NCBI RefSeq assembly: GCF_029392875.1
Contig: NZ_CP113946.1
Coordinates: 744,001-808,000 of the forward strand
DNA: 64,000 bases
Direction: 5' to 3'
DNA from: Lactobacillus sp. ESL0677
Lineage (GTDB): Bacteria; Bacillota; Bacilli; Lactobacillales; Lactobacillaceae
Shown: in pieces, positions 14,868 through 48,888 of the stretch
Layout of the letters: each line of letters begins with the position of its first letter
Position numbering within the stretch: position 1 is the first letter of the stretch
Position numbers and translations under genes: made by a program
The notes under the pieces: generated by a model
Databases searched by the model: none
The model's input: the letters and a program-made list of their open reading frames with translations, nothing else
Told to the model about the DNA's origin: nothing

Positions 14868-16075
14868 ATGAAAAAATATAAGAACATCTATTAATTAATA
14901 AATATTTTATACAATAGTGGGGTTCCGATTTGGAGTGGCACCATCTATTTGTTCATGCATCAGGTTGGCTATTCATATGGCCAAATTAATTTGTATTTGG
15001 CACTCTTTTGGATAATAACTTTTGTTGCAGAAATCCCATCAGGTTATACGGCAGATCATTTTGGCTATTTGCATACAATTCAATTTAGTGCAATTATCAG
15101 AGCAATTGGTTTAATTATACTGACTGTGCCGTTTTCAAATATTACAATCCTTGTTGCCAGTGGGATTTTAACAGCCTTAGGTGATTCTCTGCAATCTGGG
15201 ACGATGACATCGTGGATTGCAAATAAGGCTAAAAAGGAAAATAAAGCGGCTGAACTTGGCGATATCTATTCAAATTATCGAATATTAGCAACGCCAATAA
15301 GTATGATAGTTGGCTTTATAGGTGCCAATTGGTTAGGCAACGTTAATTAGCATATCCATTAGTTGCTGGTCCTTTGCTTCTGATAATGACAGCCCTGATA
15401 CTAACTTTCATACTTAAATATGATAATAAAAATATTACTGAAACTAGCGCAGACCTGAAAAGACTTAATTTGATAACAGATGTTAAAAGTGTGGTAAAAA
15501 ATGAAGCGGACACCTTTAAACTGATTTTGCTATTTTTGCCAATAGATTTTATTACTTATAGTCCCTATACCCAGTGGCAGCTATATTTTCAGCGTGGGCA
15601 CAAAATCAATACCGGCTTTATACTGGTGGCAATCAATCTAGTTGGTATCTTGGCATCTTTTGTTTATAAAAAATTAAATAAAAGAAAAATCAGTCAATTT
15701 ACAATAATTATCTTTGTTGCTTTTTTGGCAGCGGTGATGATTATTTTATCAATTACATTGACCAGCTTATACTATCTTTCCATTCTGTTTTTCCTGTTAC
15801 ATATTGCATTTTATGATATTAGGTTAATTGCTCAAGATACTATTTTGCAATTAAAAATTAGCACAGAGACAAGCAGGGCAACAATTATTTCGGTTAATAA
15901 TGCACTAGAAGCTGCGGTTTATGTAGTTATTTTAGCCATCAATGGTTATATTTTTGATCACTTTGATATTGGAGTTGCATGGGGCGTGTTAGCTATCACT
16001 GGGACGGTTCTATTTTTAATAGCACTAATTATCTATCATCAAGGCTGCAAGCAAAACTATAATAATTTAAAGTAA
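14868..16075 (+). pseudogene. MFS transporter pseudogene (early stop plus frameshift)
   Basis: One MFS permease of about 400 aa can be pieced together. It starts MKKYKNIY at ATG 14868, meets TAA at 14892-14894 in place of a Leu-type codon, and continues in the same frame through LINILYNSGVPIWSG to GNVN. At 15344-15350 the frame stops (AATTAG) and continues in another frame as LAYPLVAGP. Restoring one T (aat tta gca) joins the halves perfectly. The second half runs to 16075. The helices look normal, including the region with EIPSGYTADHFGY between helices 2 and 3. With two independent lesions the gene is almost certainly dead. Confidence 0.82.
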
Positions 16076-16096
16076 CAAAATCATTTCCATTTGTTG

Positions 16097-16125
16097 TTGA
16101 CTTATTTTAAAAAACATCTTATAAT
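16097..16125 (+). promoter_or_regulatory. Strong sigma-A promoter of the ABC uptake operon
   Basis: TTGACT (16097-16102), a 17-base spacer and a perfect TATAAT (16120-16125). Transcription would start near 16132, about 23 bases before the leader-peptide ATG. Confidence 0.8.
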
Positions 16126-16154
16126 TTTTTCATTGAGAGTTGGAGGTAATTCTG

Positions 16155-16220
16155 ATGATTAGTAGAAATTGTCTAAAATTACATTTGAATACTCGTAGCT
16201 ACTTTAGCTTCTTTAGATAG
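16155..16220 (+). CDS. Leader peptide, 21 codons, ending in Tyr/Phe-rich RSYFSFFR
   Basis: An ATG at 16155 sits 8 bases after a near-perfect SD (ggagg, 16142-16146) and opens a 21-codon frame ending at TAG 16218-16220. The last eight residues, RSYFSFFR, hold one Tyr and three Phe codons. It is followed by stem-loops and a terminator and precedes an amino-acid-type ABC transporter, which is the layout of transcription attenuation by a leader peptide. It has no Trp codon. A ribosome stalled at the Tyr/Phe codons would cover 16200-16215. That this is a regulatory leader is inference from layout and SD quality. Confidence 0.65.
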   Translation: MISRNCLKLHLNTRSYFSFFR

Positions 16221-16356
16221 CGTTTGGATTCATCTAGTTGGATTCAAGCGGAACGCAAGTTTGAATCTATCTATGATGGCTAAAGCAGTTTGATTGCAAT
16301 TAGTCACATGATTTCTAAGTGGCTAATTGCAACATTAAATTTAAAATGAATTTTTT
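16221..16356 (+). promoter_or_regulatory. Attenuator: competing RNA structures between leader peptide and terminator
   Basis: Two copies of ggattca (16226-16232 and 16240-16246) can each pair with the tgaatc segment at 16262-16267. CTTTAGC inside the leader frame (16202-16208) is complementary to GCTAAAG at 16279-16285. A 14-bp stem joins 16294-16307 with 16319-16332. Its 3' side with the loop edge (CTAAGTGG, 16315-16322) is exactly complementary to CCACTTAG (16363-16370), the 5' arm of the terminator. The 14-bp stem would thus hold the antiterminator sequence and let the terminator form. No T-box sequence or known riboswitch core was seen. Confidence 0.65.
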
Positions 16357-16392
16357 AAATACCCACTTAGGAATTAAGTGGGTATTTTTTAT
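16357..16392 (+). terminator. Attenuator terminator ahead of the ABC uptake operon
   Basis: A 13-bp perfect stem (16357-16369 with 16375-16387), 5-base loop, and T run 16384-16390. It lies between the leader peptide and the first structural gene and so can switch the operon. Confidence 0.88.
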
Positions 16393-16425
16393 TAAAATAT
16401 TTTTAAATATTATGGAGGAAAAATA

Positions 16426-17394
16426 ATGCATATTAAAAAAATAATTGCTGGAATTAGTTTGGTAAGTTTATTACTTTTAGGTGGTTGCAGCAGTAATAAG
16501 ACTGGTAAAAGCGCAACAGTTAAACATGTTGGCGTTTTACAAGTTGTTCAACACCCATCACTTGATGAAGCATACAAGGGCTTTAAGGAAGGCCTAAAGG
16601 ACGGCGGTTACGTTGAAGGTAAAAATTTAAAAATTGATTATCAAAACGCGCAAAATAGTCAAGATAATTTAAAGAGTATGAGTGACAAATTGGTTAATGA
16701 AAAATCTGATCTCGTACTGGGAATTGCCACACCAGCTGCCCAAAGCTTAGCTAATACAACGCAAAATATACCAATTGTTGTTACGGCTGTAACTGACTTA
16801 AAAGCTGCTAAGTTAGTCAATTCAAATGAAAAACCTGGTAAAAATGTCACGGGGACTACCGATATGGTTTCAATTGATAAGCAAATCAAATTATTATTGT
16901 CAATTGTTCCTAAAGCAAAGACAATCGGTATTATGTACAATGCTGGCGAGGCCAATTCAAAAATCCAAGCCGATTTAGCAATTGCCGCATTAAAGAAGGC
17001 TGGGGTCAAGGTCATAGTTAAAACAGCTAATACAACTAACGATGTGCAACAAGTAACAGAAACTTTAGCTGATAAAGTTCAAGGAATATATGTTCCAACT
17101 GATAATACTTTTGCTTCTGCAGCTTCACTGATTGGTAAAGTCGTGAAGGAAAAGAAAATCCCGTTAGTAGCTGGTGCAACTGAGCAGGTTAAAAATGGTG
17201 GTCTTGCCTCAATCGGAATCGATTATGAATCATTAGGAAGACAAACGGGTAAAATGGCTGCTAAAATTTTGTCGGGTAAGGCAAAACCTCAAGATATGCC
17301 TGTTGAAAAGGCTACTAATTTAAAGTTAGTGGTCAATAAGAAGATGGCTAAGGCTTTAGGAATTGATCCAAAATCGATTAAGGCACCTAAATAG
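16426..17394 (+). CDS. trpX: ABC transporter substrate-binding lipoprotein, TrpX-like
   Basis: This is a lipoprotein receptor of the ABC_sub_bind family (TrpX/YcjN-like, BMP-related fold), 322 aa. A signal peptide ends in the lipobox LLLGGC (Cys21), followed by a Ser/Lys linker and a two-lobed binding domain: VGVLQVVQHPSLDEAYKGF, ATPAAQSLA, PIVVTAVTDL, IGIMYNAGEANS and YVPTDNTFASA. Relatives carry tryptophan or related aromatic compounds in streptococci. SD ggagg precedes the ATG. The leader upstream has Tyr/Phe rather than Trp codons, so the ligand may be another aromatic amino acid. Confidence 0.85.
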   Translation: MHIKKIIAGISLVSLLLLGGCSSNKTGKSATVKHVGVLQVVQHPSLDEAYKGFKEGLKDGGYVEGKNLKIDYQNAQNSQDNLKSMSDKLVNEKSDLVLGIATPAAQSLANTTQNIPIVVTAVTDLKAAKLVNSNEKPGKNVTGTTDMVSIDKQIKLLLSIVPKAKTIGIMYNAGEANSKIQADLAIAALKKAGVKVIVKTANTTNDVQQVTETLADKVQGIYVPTDNTFASAASLIGKVVKEKKIPLVAGATEQVKNGGLASIGIDYESLGRQTGKMAAKILSGKAKPQDMPVEKATNLKLVVNKKMAKALGIDPKSIKAPK

Positions 17395-35441: not shown

Positions 35442-35806
35442 GGGGATGTTTTGGGATTCGACAGGCGTAGATTCGCATTGACTGCGATTTGTAGGTCACG
35501 TCTACATTAAAACGTCACAGAACTTTAACTGCAAATAAAGAAAATTCTTACGCATTAGCTGCTTAATTTAGCACTTATGCCTTGCCTAACATTGGATTAC
35601 TCACGTCTAGTAGTAGGTATCAAATTAGTGAGTTACGTTTAACTACCTCATCTGAATAGTTAAAAAGAGTCCTAAACAGGTTAGCTAGTCCATCCTAGCT
35701 CTGTTATATGGCGTTTTGGACTAGTGAAGTTCAAGTAATATAACTATGATCGTAGAGGTCAGTGACGGAATGCGTTTGGACAGGGGTTCAATTCCCCTCA
35801 TCTCCA
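35442..35806 (+). ncRNA. ssrA: Transfer-messenger RNA (ssrA)
   Basis: One-piece tmRNA of about 365 nt. The 5' GGGGATG (35442-35448) pairs with 3' CATCTCC (35799-35805) as the acceptor stem, and GGTTCAATTCCCC is the T-arm. The tag reading frame begins at GCA 35531 and encodes ANKENSYALAA before TAA 35564-35566. The CCA end is not encoded. It rescues stalled ribosomes with SmpB. A terminator follows, and an integrase remnant lies just beyond it. Confidence 0.95.
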
Positions 35807-35816
35807 CTGTATAGAT

Positions 35817-48636: not shown

Positions 48637-48735
48637 GAATGTCTATCCTTTTAAAAAATTTATCTTATTAATTATTATAACTAAAAATCTCTTGACAAGA
48701 ACAACTTTTACAAGCATAATAATTAATGTTGATTT

Positions 48736-48807
48736 TGCCCGTTGGTCAAATGGTTAAGACGCCACTCTCTCAAGGTGGAGTTACGAGTTCAATTCTCGTA
48801 CGGGTGA
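48736..48807 (+). tRNA. tRNA-Glu (anticodon CUC)
   Basis: A 72-nt cloverleaf. Acceptor TGCCCGT pairs with ACGGGTG (ending T-G), D-arm GTC/GAC, anticodon stem CCACT/GGTGG with loop CTCTCAA (anticodon CTC), variable loop agtt, T-arm ACGAG-TTCAATT-CTCGT. The Glu anticodon with C at position 34 reads only GAG. No encoded CCA. Confidence 0.82.
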
Positions 48808-48816
48808 TTTTATCAA

Positions 48817-48888
48817 TGGGATATAGCCAAATGGTAAGGCACAGGTTTCTGGTTCCTGCATGTTTCGGTTCGAGCCCGGATATCCCAA
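48817..48888 (+). tRNA. tRNA-Gln (anticodon CUG)
   Basis: A 72-nt cloverleaf starting TGGGATA and ending TATCCCA plus discriminator A. D-arm GCC/GGC; anticodon stem CAGGT/TCCTG with a T-T mismatch next to the loop TTCTGGT (anticodon CTG); T-arm TTCGG-TTCGAGC-CCGGA. It reads only CAG. It is the likely prophage attachment locus, since the integrase gene starts its 3' flank. No encoded CCA. Confidence 0.82.

Follow-up and report, generated by a model that had tools for sequence, protein, structure and literature searches.

A putative ribosome-mediated Tyr/Phe attenuator upstream of a TrpX-like transporter operon in Lactobacillus, and its apparent class in Lactobacillales

The transporter operon and its leader region

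The window analysed here is a stretch of 64,000 nucleotides from Lactobacillus sp. ESL0677 (contig NZ_CP113946.1, positions 744,001 to 808,000), and all coordinates refer to its forward strand. It carries genes for a TrpX-family substrate-binding protein (PF04392; 16426..17394), a transporter permease (PF02653; 17422..18339) and a transporter ATPase (PF00005; 18317..19120, start codon picked by eye), the latter two named by domain match. The binding protein reaches 340 bits against the TrpX equivalog NF041285, below its cut-off of 390. Directly upstream lies an MFS-like gene split over two forward-strand ORFs, 14949-15350 and 15374-16075, which do not share a frame; it is perhaps a frameshifted gene. 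Elsewhere, the window holds a tmRNA gene (35442-35807) and genes for tRNA-Glu and tRNA-Gln (48735-48888).

The element that precedes the operon (16097-16392) opens with a promoter match at 16097..16125 (−35 TTGACT, −10 TATAAT, 17-nt spacer) that agrees with the consensus at 11 of 12 positions; since the whole stretch has 3 promoter-like sites and 2.7 are expected by chance, the match alone is no proof. A Shine-Dalgarno sequence, TGGAGGT (16141..16147), with similar ones found 5' of the leader in relatives, is followed by a leader-peptide ORF of 21 codons at 16155..16220 (MISRNCLKLHLNTRSYFSFFR, ending RSYFSFFR before the stop), whose C-terminus is conserved across relatives. Position-specific codon counts mark Tyr-Phe-(Ser)-Phe-Phe (16200..16214) as its specifier codons.

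The end of this ORF and the RNA beyond it form six segments with alternative pairings. Segment 1 (16202..16220) comprises CTTTAGCT at 16202-16209 and TAGATAG at 16214-16220 and, if free of the ribosome, can pair with segment 2 (CTATCTATGATGGCTAAAG, 16267..16285): CTTTAGCT matches GGCTAAAG at 16278-16285, and TAGATAG matches CTATCTA at 16267-16273. Segment 2 can also pair with segment 3 (approximately 16272-16283 with 16300-16310, one A bulged). Segment 3 (16294..16307) is in turn the 5' arm of a 14-bp stem, 16294-16307:16319-16332, and segment 4 (16315..16332) contains the 3' arm of that stem (16319-16332) plus a flank with CTAAGTGG. This sequence, at 16315-16322, is the exact 8-base complement of CCACTTAG at 16363-16370. 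Segment 5 (16357..16369) and segment 6 (16375..16392, i.e. the 3' arm 16375-16387 and the U run) form a 13-bp terminator, 16357-16369:16375-16387, with one such terminator found where chance gives 0.0 (sd 0.2). Pairing and alignment also place an internal hairpin, A:B, at 16221..16250, with 16221-16232 opposite 16239-16250.

A preliminary description of this DNA had reported the promoter, Shine-Dalgarno sequence, 21-codon leader, 14-bp stem, 8-base complement and 13-bp terminator, as well as the pairing of the leader codons CTTTAGC with GCTAAAG downstream; we find all of them where it placed them. Hairpin A:B, the second leader pairing (TAGATAG with CTATCTA) and the competing duplex between segment 2 and the 5' arm of the 14-bp stem are additions to it. 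The leader RNA has a folding energy of −84.9 kcal/mol (z −8.24), which none of 200 shuffles equals. As in an attenuator, a terminator is paired with a mutually exclusive antiterminator, leader codons lie within the pairing chain, and the leader is translatable and rich in codons of the amino acids presumably regulated, Tyr and Phe being the putative transporter substrates.

Conservation, covariation and spread of the leader

A search with the binding protein yields 108 loci, 78 from named genomes and 30 from a genus search, in which 88 elements are picked up through an anchor placed in segment 2; the leader is read automatically in 84 of these. Its N-terminus is variable and its C-terminus constant, ending in QLNNRYYFSYFR and variants of it in Lactobacillus, Enterococcus and Vagococcus (e.g. 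YYLSYYR, YYYSYYR, KAYFSYFR, SFYFSYFR, and NFYFSFFR). Several Lactobacillus, which from their strain and species names we take to be of bee origin, have two tandem binding-protein copies with one leader each. The invariance of segment 2 partly reflects how the elements were selected, since the anchor sits there; the covariance-model searches below are anchor-free, with a model built from anchored leaders.

Setting aside one element that contains N leaves 87, and removing redundancy leaves 42 leaders (alignment A1). Across these, the off-state helices 1:2, A:B and 3:4 have 94.3% of cells paired, compared with 30-40% when slid by 1-3 columns, and double-sided changes occur in 13 pairs compared with 5.9 in shuffles. 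Changes in helix 1:2 involve the leader codons themselves, with CTTTAGC/GCTAAAG becoming CTATAGC/GCTATAG or TCTTAGC/GCTAAGG. For the on-state helix 2:3, 91.3% of cells are paired, compared with 16-43% when slid, and there is little covariation because segment 2 scarcely varies. The antiterminator complement 4:5 is complete (8 of 8 bases) in 41 leaders and one base short (7 of 8) in the remaining one, including the compensated variants CTGAGTGG/CCACTCAG, CTAAATGG/CCATTTAG, and CTATGTGG/CCATGTAG; an 8-base match is not rare by itself, as 7.4% of downstream shuffles per leader reach the score when the best of all positions is counted. Terminator pairing 5:6 involves 7 or 8 of 8 bases in 40 of 42 leaders. 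A3, a more diverse set of 64 matches whose alignment was fitted to the model, shows double-sided changes in 38 of 40 pairs, amounting to 329 cells compared with 101 in shuffles. The preliminary description had proposed looking for a conserved leader with covarying stems upstream of homologous trpX genes, and both are present: leader codons and pairings are kept, and helices 1:2, A:B and 3:4 covary.

A further conserved feature is a set of QLN codons (HLN in the window, 16182-16190) 8 to 10 codons before the last leader codon, present in Tyr/Phe leaders and some Trp leaders, with a role that pairing does not explain. Pairing of these codons with segment A is kept in 88% of cells and shows no covariation, so we do not claim it. 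One leader, from Lactobacillus kimbladii (L005:3299-3414), is without the A:B hairpin, apparently through a deletion between two similar stretches, A and C, and offers a natural test of the role of this hairpin.

A covariance model of 155 positions built from the 42 Tyr/Phe leaders (R1) matches, under strict filters, 251 of 395 Lactobacillales genomes in 59 of 80 genera. Under the same filters, only 2 of 249 genomes sampled across the phylum match, i.e. that of the window and one other from Lactobacillales. For 152 R1 matches, the surroundings were collected, with one antisense match (L109) excluded. The source genomes are 64 of the 251, hand-picked to cover a spread of genera as well as additional copies, so the codon and gene counts that follow are not a random sample.

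Leader codons, downstream genes and transporter subfamilies

Leader codons were set against the downstream gene for 143 of the 152 elements, the remainder being eight duplicates, named by hand, and one element (L179:2844) without a gene, which has its own duplicate among those eight; 2 of the 152 have no downstream gene in the locus. The TrpX family follows 93 of the 143, with 90 Tyr/Phe leaders and 3 Trp leaders. This count takes as Tyr/Phe a leader (L220) that reads MHHLTTLLNGFFGFFR before the stop in the frame that closes with the scaffold sequence AGATAG, with a Shine-Dalgarno sequence, and as Trp a leader (L248) with SWQSH. Genes of the aromatic pathway follow 18 elements, all with Tyr/Phe leaders (AroE in 13, and one each of DAHP synthase, chorismate synthase, a dehydroquinate-synthase-like protein, prephenate dehydratase, and an MFS-chorismate mutase fusion). 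Branched-chain genes follow 12 (LivJ-like 8, IlvA 2, IlvB 1, and IlvE 1), and all 12 have Ile/Leu/Val leaders; trpB, which occurs among the RF04312 matches described below, has a Trp leader in 4 of 4 cases. Tyr/Phe leaders also precede all 8 SBP_bac_3 binding proteins, all 4 aminotransferases, and the single DASS/CitMHS protein, D-2-hydroxyacid dehydrogenase and amino acid permease. One POT transporter has a mixed leader, and one of the 143 matches has no leader. At three loci (L206, L219, and L244), the gene downstream encodes a protein of 178-184 aa, and the leader overruns its usual stop, with YYFSFF inside; the one representative of this protein that was scanned has no NCBIfam or Pfam match.

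Family names come from one representative per cluster and from all other AroE, LivJ-like and trpB members. Shikimate dehydrogenase is the best family for all 13 AroE proteins. The best family for all 8 LivJ-like proteins is NF011933 (branched-chain binding), at 149-187 bits compared with a cut-off of 477, and the prephenate dehydratase also lies below its cut-off (188 compared with 219 bits). Two observations count against the fit between codons and genes. For the SBP_bac_3 proteins, the closest families are binding proteins for cystine and basic amino acids, at scores well under the cut-offs, and the permease at L209:2007-3389 is nearest to the branched-chain permease BcaP (577 bits, cut-off 690), yet has a Phe/Tyr leader, which would suggest an aromatic substrate.

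The usual leader layout is two specifier codons, Ser, two specifier codons, Arg, and stop. Ser and Arg are replaced by Gly in some relatives (YYYGYYG and FFAGFFG), and segment 2 changes along with them. Similarly, in Ile leaders segment 2 has TGCTAAT opposite ATTAGCA, or TGCTGAT opposite ATCAGCA. The element apparently belongs to a modular Lactobacillales class in which Tyr/Phe, Ile/Leu/Val or Trp codons are swapped on one scaffold, with a matching segment 2. The comparative evidence points to the kind of element that the preliminary description proposed, i.e. Tyr/Phe leader-peptide attenuation.

The class of the leader also follows the subfamily of the transporter. Among TrpX proteins drawn at random, 10 of 10 with a Trp leader reach the 390-bit equivalog cut-off (436-481 bits), compared with 0 of 10 with a Tyr/Phe leader (297-340 bits). 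In a tree of 126 TrpX proteins, the distribution of the leader labels (42 Trp, 83 Tyr/Phe) requires 2 changes, compared with about 36 in shuffles, and 3 if the single unlabelled row is treated as its own group. This is a quick tree with long branches flagged and near-copies included; it omits open-ended proteins, any whose leader was not read automatically, and proteins from Trp-leader loci that are outside 300-360 aa or not TrpX. Because leader class follows subfamily, the "TrpX" of the window is probably a Tyr/Phe transporter. The genome of the window has two R1 copies, with leaders SYFSFFR and NCYYLSYFR, and a third copy of the gene, 39% identical, has a Trp leader (MIQSTSLNMNKSWQGQQD, read by eye). 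The solved structures nearest to the binding protein of the window are 6hni, which we take to be the tyrosine-binding CD0873 of Clostridioides difficile, then 3lkv and 3lft, the last described as binding tryptophan. A classical Trp leader is rejected for the window, as the preliminary description had argued: the leader has no Trp codon, and Trp leaders belong to another TrpX branch.

Proposed mechanism, competing readings and significance

Going by these sequence comparisons, we consider it very probable that the element is a ribosome-mediated attenuator that senses charged tRNA-Tyr and tRNA-Phe, controls an aromatic amino acid ABC transporter and is a member of the modular Lactobacillales class; the stall, the folding order, the response to starvation and the transporter substrate are what we infer from them. 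The switch would be a relay of six segments, with 1:2, 3:4 and 5:6 paired in the off state and 2:3 and 4:5 in the on state. With ample Tyr and Phe, the ribosome would complete the leader and depart, so that segment 1, with the last leader codons, pairs with 2, then 3 with 4 and 5 with 6, and the terminator stops transcription. A shortage of Tyr or Phe would make the ribosome stall on the Tyr/Phe codons and cover segment 1; segment 2 would then be free to pair with 3, and segment 4, once freed, with 5, which would block the terminator and allow transcription of trpXYZ. The his operon attenuator of enterobacteria is likewise a six-segment leader with the same off and on chains, decided by a stall at leader codons. 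The window class differs from it in occurring in another order, with other sequences and the extra hairpin A:B, and in using a single conserved scaffold for Tyr/Phe, Ile/Leu/Val or Trp codons.

We simulated the ribosome by masking RNA in 41 of the 42 leaders, the other one having no recognised stop, and give the position of the ribosome edge relative to the leader stop. If this edge sits some 15 nt downstream of the first P-site base, stalls at Tyr/Phe codons would place it at −6 to +6. For nascent RNA that ends after segment 3, the mean P(2:3) is 0.05 when unmasked, with 2 of 41 leaders above 0.5, and rises to 0.52-0.64 at edges of −6 to +6, with 25-32 of 41 above 0.5; in the window itself, P(2:3) is 0.01 free and 0.51-0.80 masked. 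The equilibrium fold through segment 5 responds weakly to the same stalls, with a mean P(4:5) of 0.25-0.35 compared with 0.25 free, and P(2:3) of 0.17-0.30 compared with 0.02 free. The effect becomes clear there only once the edge reaches +15 or beyond (P(4:5) 0.39-0.58). In that scan, the window gives 0.2-0.3 at all edges; another calculation for it, with a different 3' end, gives 0.00 at +2 and +6 and 0.62 at +15. With the whole terminator present, equilibrium always gives the terminator in the window (0.94-0.95). Given the weak equilibrium effect, either the relay depends on co-transcriptional folding or the ribosome position that matters lies closer to the stop. Co-transcriptional folding, with 2:3 formed before segment 4 emerges, would reconcile both scans.

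A competing reading is nascent-peptide arrest, i.e. a free ligand that stalls the ribosome near the leader stop, as in TnaC, and so sets the RNA switch. The preference of the equilibrium fold through segment 5 for an edge well past the stop codon agrees with this reading, which the preliminary description had raised as an alternative, and so does the strong conservation of the leader C-terminus, QLN included. Yet Tyr, Phe, Ile, Leu, Val and Trp codons interchange among relatives and track the downstream gene, the distance from QLN to the stop is not fixed (8 to 10 codons), and the conserved Ser and Arg codons sit in paired segments, with Gly in their place in some relatives. Because the codons are exchanged in this way, we regard an arrest peptide as unlikely.

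Two Rfam entries overlap elements of the class, the trpB motif (RF04312) and RF02863. The trpB motif has been described as a strong riboswitch candidate with an amino-acid-related ligand, a classic attenuator not being ruled out, and has been linked to Fusobacteria (PMC11109978). Within Lactobacillales, it matches 159 of 295 genomes, 52 of them over the cut-off. In a phylum sample, it matches 4 of 299 genomes, one of which, from Lactobacillales, is over the cut-off, while the other three are below it and show no leader on reading. We read 50 matches, 30 loci and 20 further ones chosen by hand, listing ORFs that start with ATG and have an SD-like sequence, plus all other ORFs containing W. An ORF with Trp codons lies directly 5' in all 30 of the over-cut-off Lactobacillales loci (ending, e.g. 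SWQNWRR, TWQSWRR or SWQSR before the stop) and in 19 of the further 20, the remaining one being YYYGYFG. By BLAST, 43 of the 50 elements precede a TrpX-family gene and 4 precede trpB, these 4 reaching the TIGR00263 cut-off, and the other three are followed by a different gene or by none within reach. With a loose pattern, a TAGATA-like leader end is seen in 37 of the 50 and a segment-2-like sequence in 45; the TAGATA-like end is lost mainly in Trp leaders of the window's genus and related ones. The Tyr/Phe-built R1 model also finds three Trp elements (L243, L247, and L248), which favours common descent. The window scores 23.7 bits against RF04312 (E 0.37; gathering score 59), and its Trp-leader relatives pass.

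Direct binding of an amino acid or related metabolite by the structured leader, as proposed for the trpB motif, would accord with the published candidacy (PMC11109978) and with the strong fold of the window leader. It is nevertheless very improbable in our judgment, given the Trp-codon ORFs at 49 of the 50 loci read, a segment 2 that varies with the codons, and the lack, by eye, of an invariant pocket outside the pairing segments. The leaders speak for RF04312 in Lactobacillales being an attenuator. The published account shares with the window class an overlapping scaffold, the transporter family and a terminator, and we read Trp-codon leaders in front of the motif; it differs in covering, on our reading, only the Trp branch and in describing a riboswitch candidate, with no leader peptide mentioned in the available part of the text (Narunsky et al. 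2024, PMC11109978).

RF02863, i.e. Enterococcus sRNA 2410, covers segments 1-4 of the window element, which scores 58.7 bits (E 3.2e-9), just under the gathering score of 61; relatives in the class pass it, e.g. at 61.9, 65.6, 76, and 78.6 bits. The family is filed as an sRNA, with neither leader peptide nor target gene given in the accessible portion of its source, and in Enterococcus faecium sRNA_2410 was seen as a separate 195-nt RNA, with two transcripts on Northern blots (PMC5593968). These transcripts are the case for a trans-acting small RNA, a reading to which we give even less weight than to the riboswitch, since a terminated leader would explain the short RNA, and the 195-nt length fits one. 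The position before amino-acid genes, the fit of codons to genes, and the antiterminator argue for a cis leader; a second, trans role of the short RNA may exist.

Least credible of all is a T-box that reads uncharged tRNA: the trpXYZ transporter family is under a Trp T-box in Streptococcus suis, where it shares antitermination on amino acid shortage with the window class and differs in that the RNA reads the tRNA directly, as described without a leader peptide (PMC9382623), but the T-box model RF00230 finds nothing in the window when held to its gathering score and nothing within 16080-16440 at E up to 5, so this identity is rejected, in line with the preliminary description. The leu-phe leader RF01743, a lactic-acid-bacterial leader RNA also named for two amino acids and, in the source as available, listed for Lactococcus lactis only (Weinberg et al. 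2010, PMC2864571), is likewise rejected at the level of the covariance model. It has no match in the window element (E up to 5) or in the genome of the window, and 0 of 118 Lactobacillales genomes are over the cut-off, with one weak match and a positive L. lactis control.

Leader-peptide control of branched-chain genes has been described elsewhere in Firmicutes, for the ilv leaders of S. aureus and Listeria (PMC5794164, PMC5864092). The logic of the attenuator considered here is known, being of the his type, and the modular class has apparently gone unrecognised as one; among openly licensed full texts, we found no description of it as a single attenuator. Taking the parts together, we think it likely that one ancestral Lactobacillales attenuator has been repeatedly copied and re-specified through its codons and segment 2, as T-boxes have been, that the codons can serve to label the substrates of unassigned transporters and enzymes, that RF04312 and RF02863 are branches of the class, and that the window TrpX is a Tyr/Phe transporter.

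If so, an orphan riboswitch candidate and an orphan sRNA family would gain a mechanism, and leader-peptide attenuation would be a widespread form of amino-acid control in an order noted for its T-boxes. The leader codons would then serve as a code that predicts the substrates of transporters and enzymes. Because codons and segment 2 must change together, the class would also provide a natural series on how an RNA switch changes its specificity.
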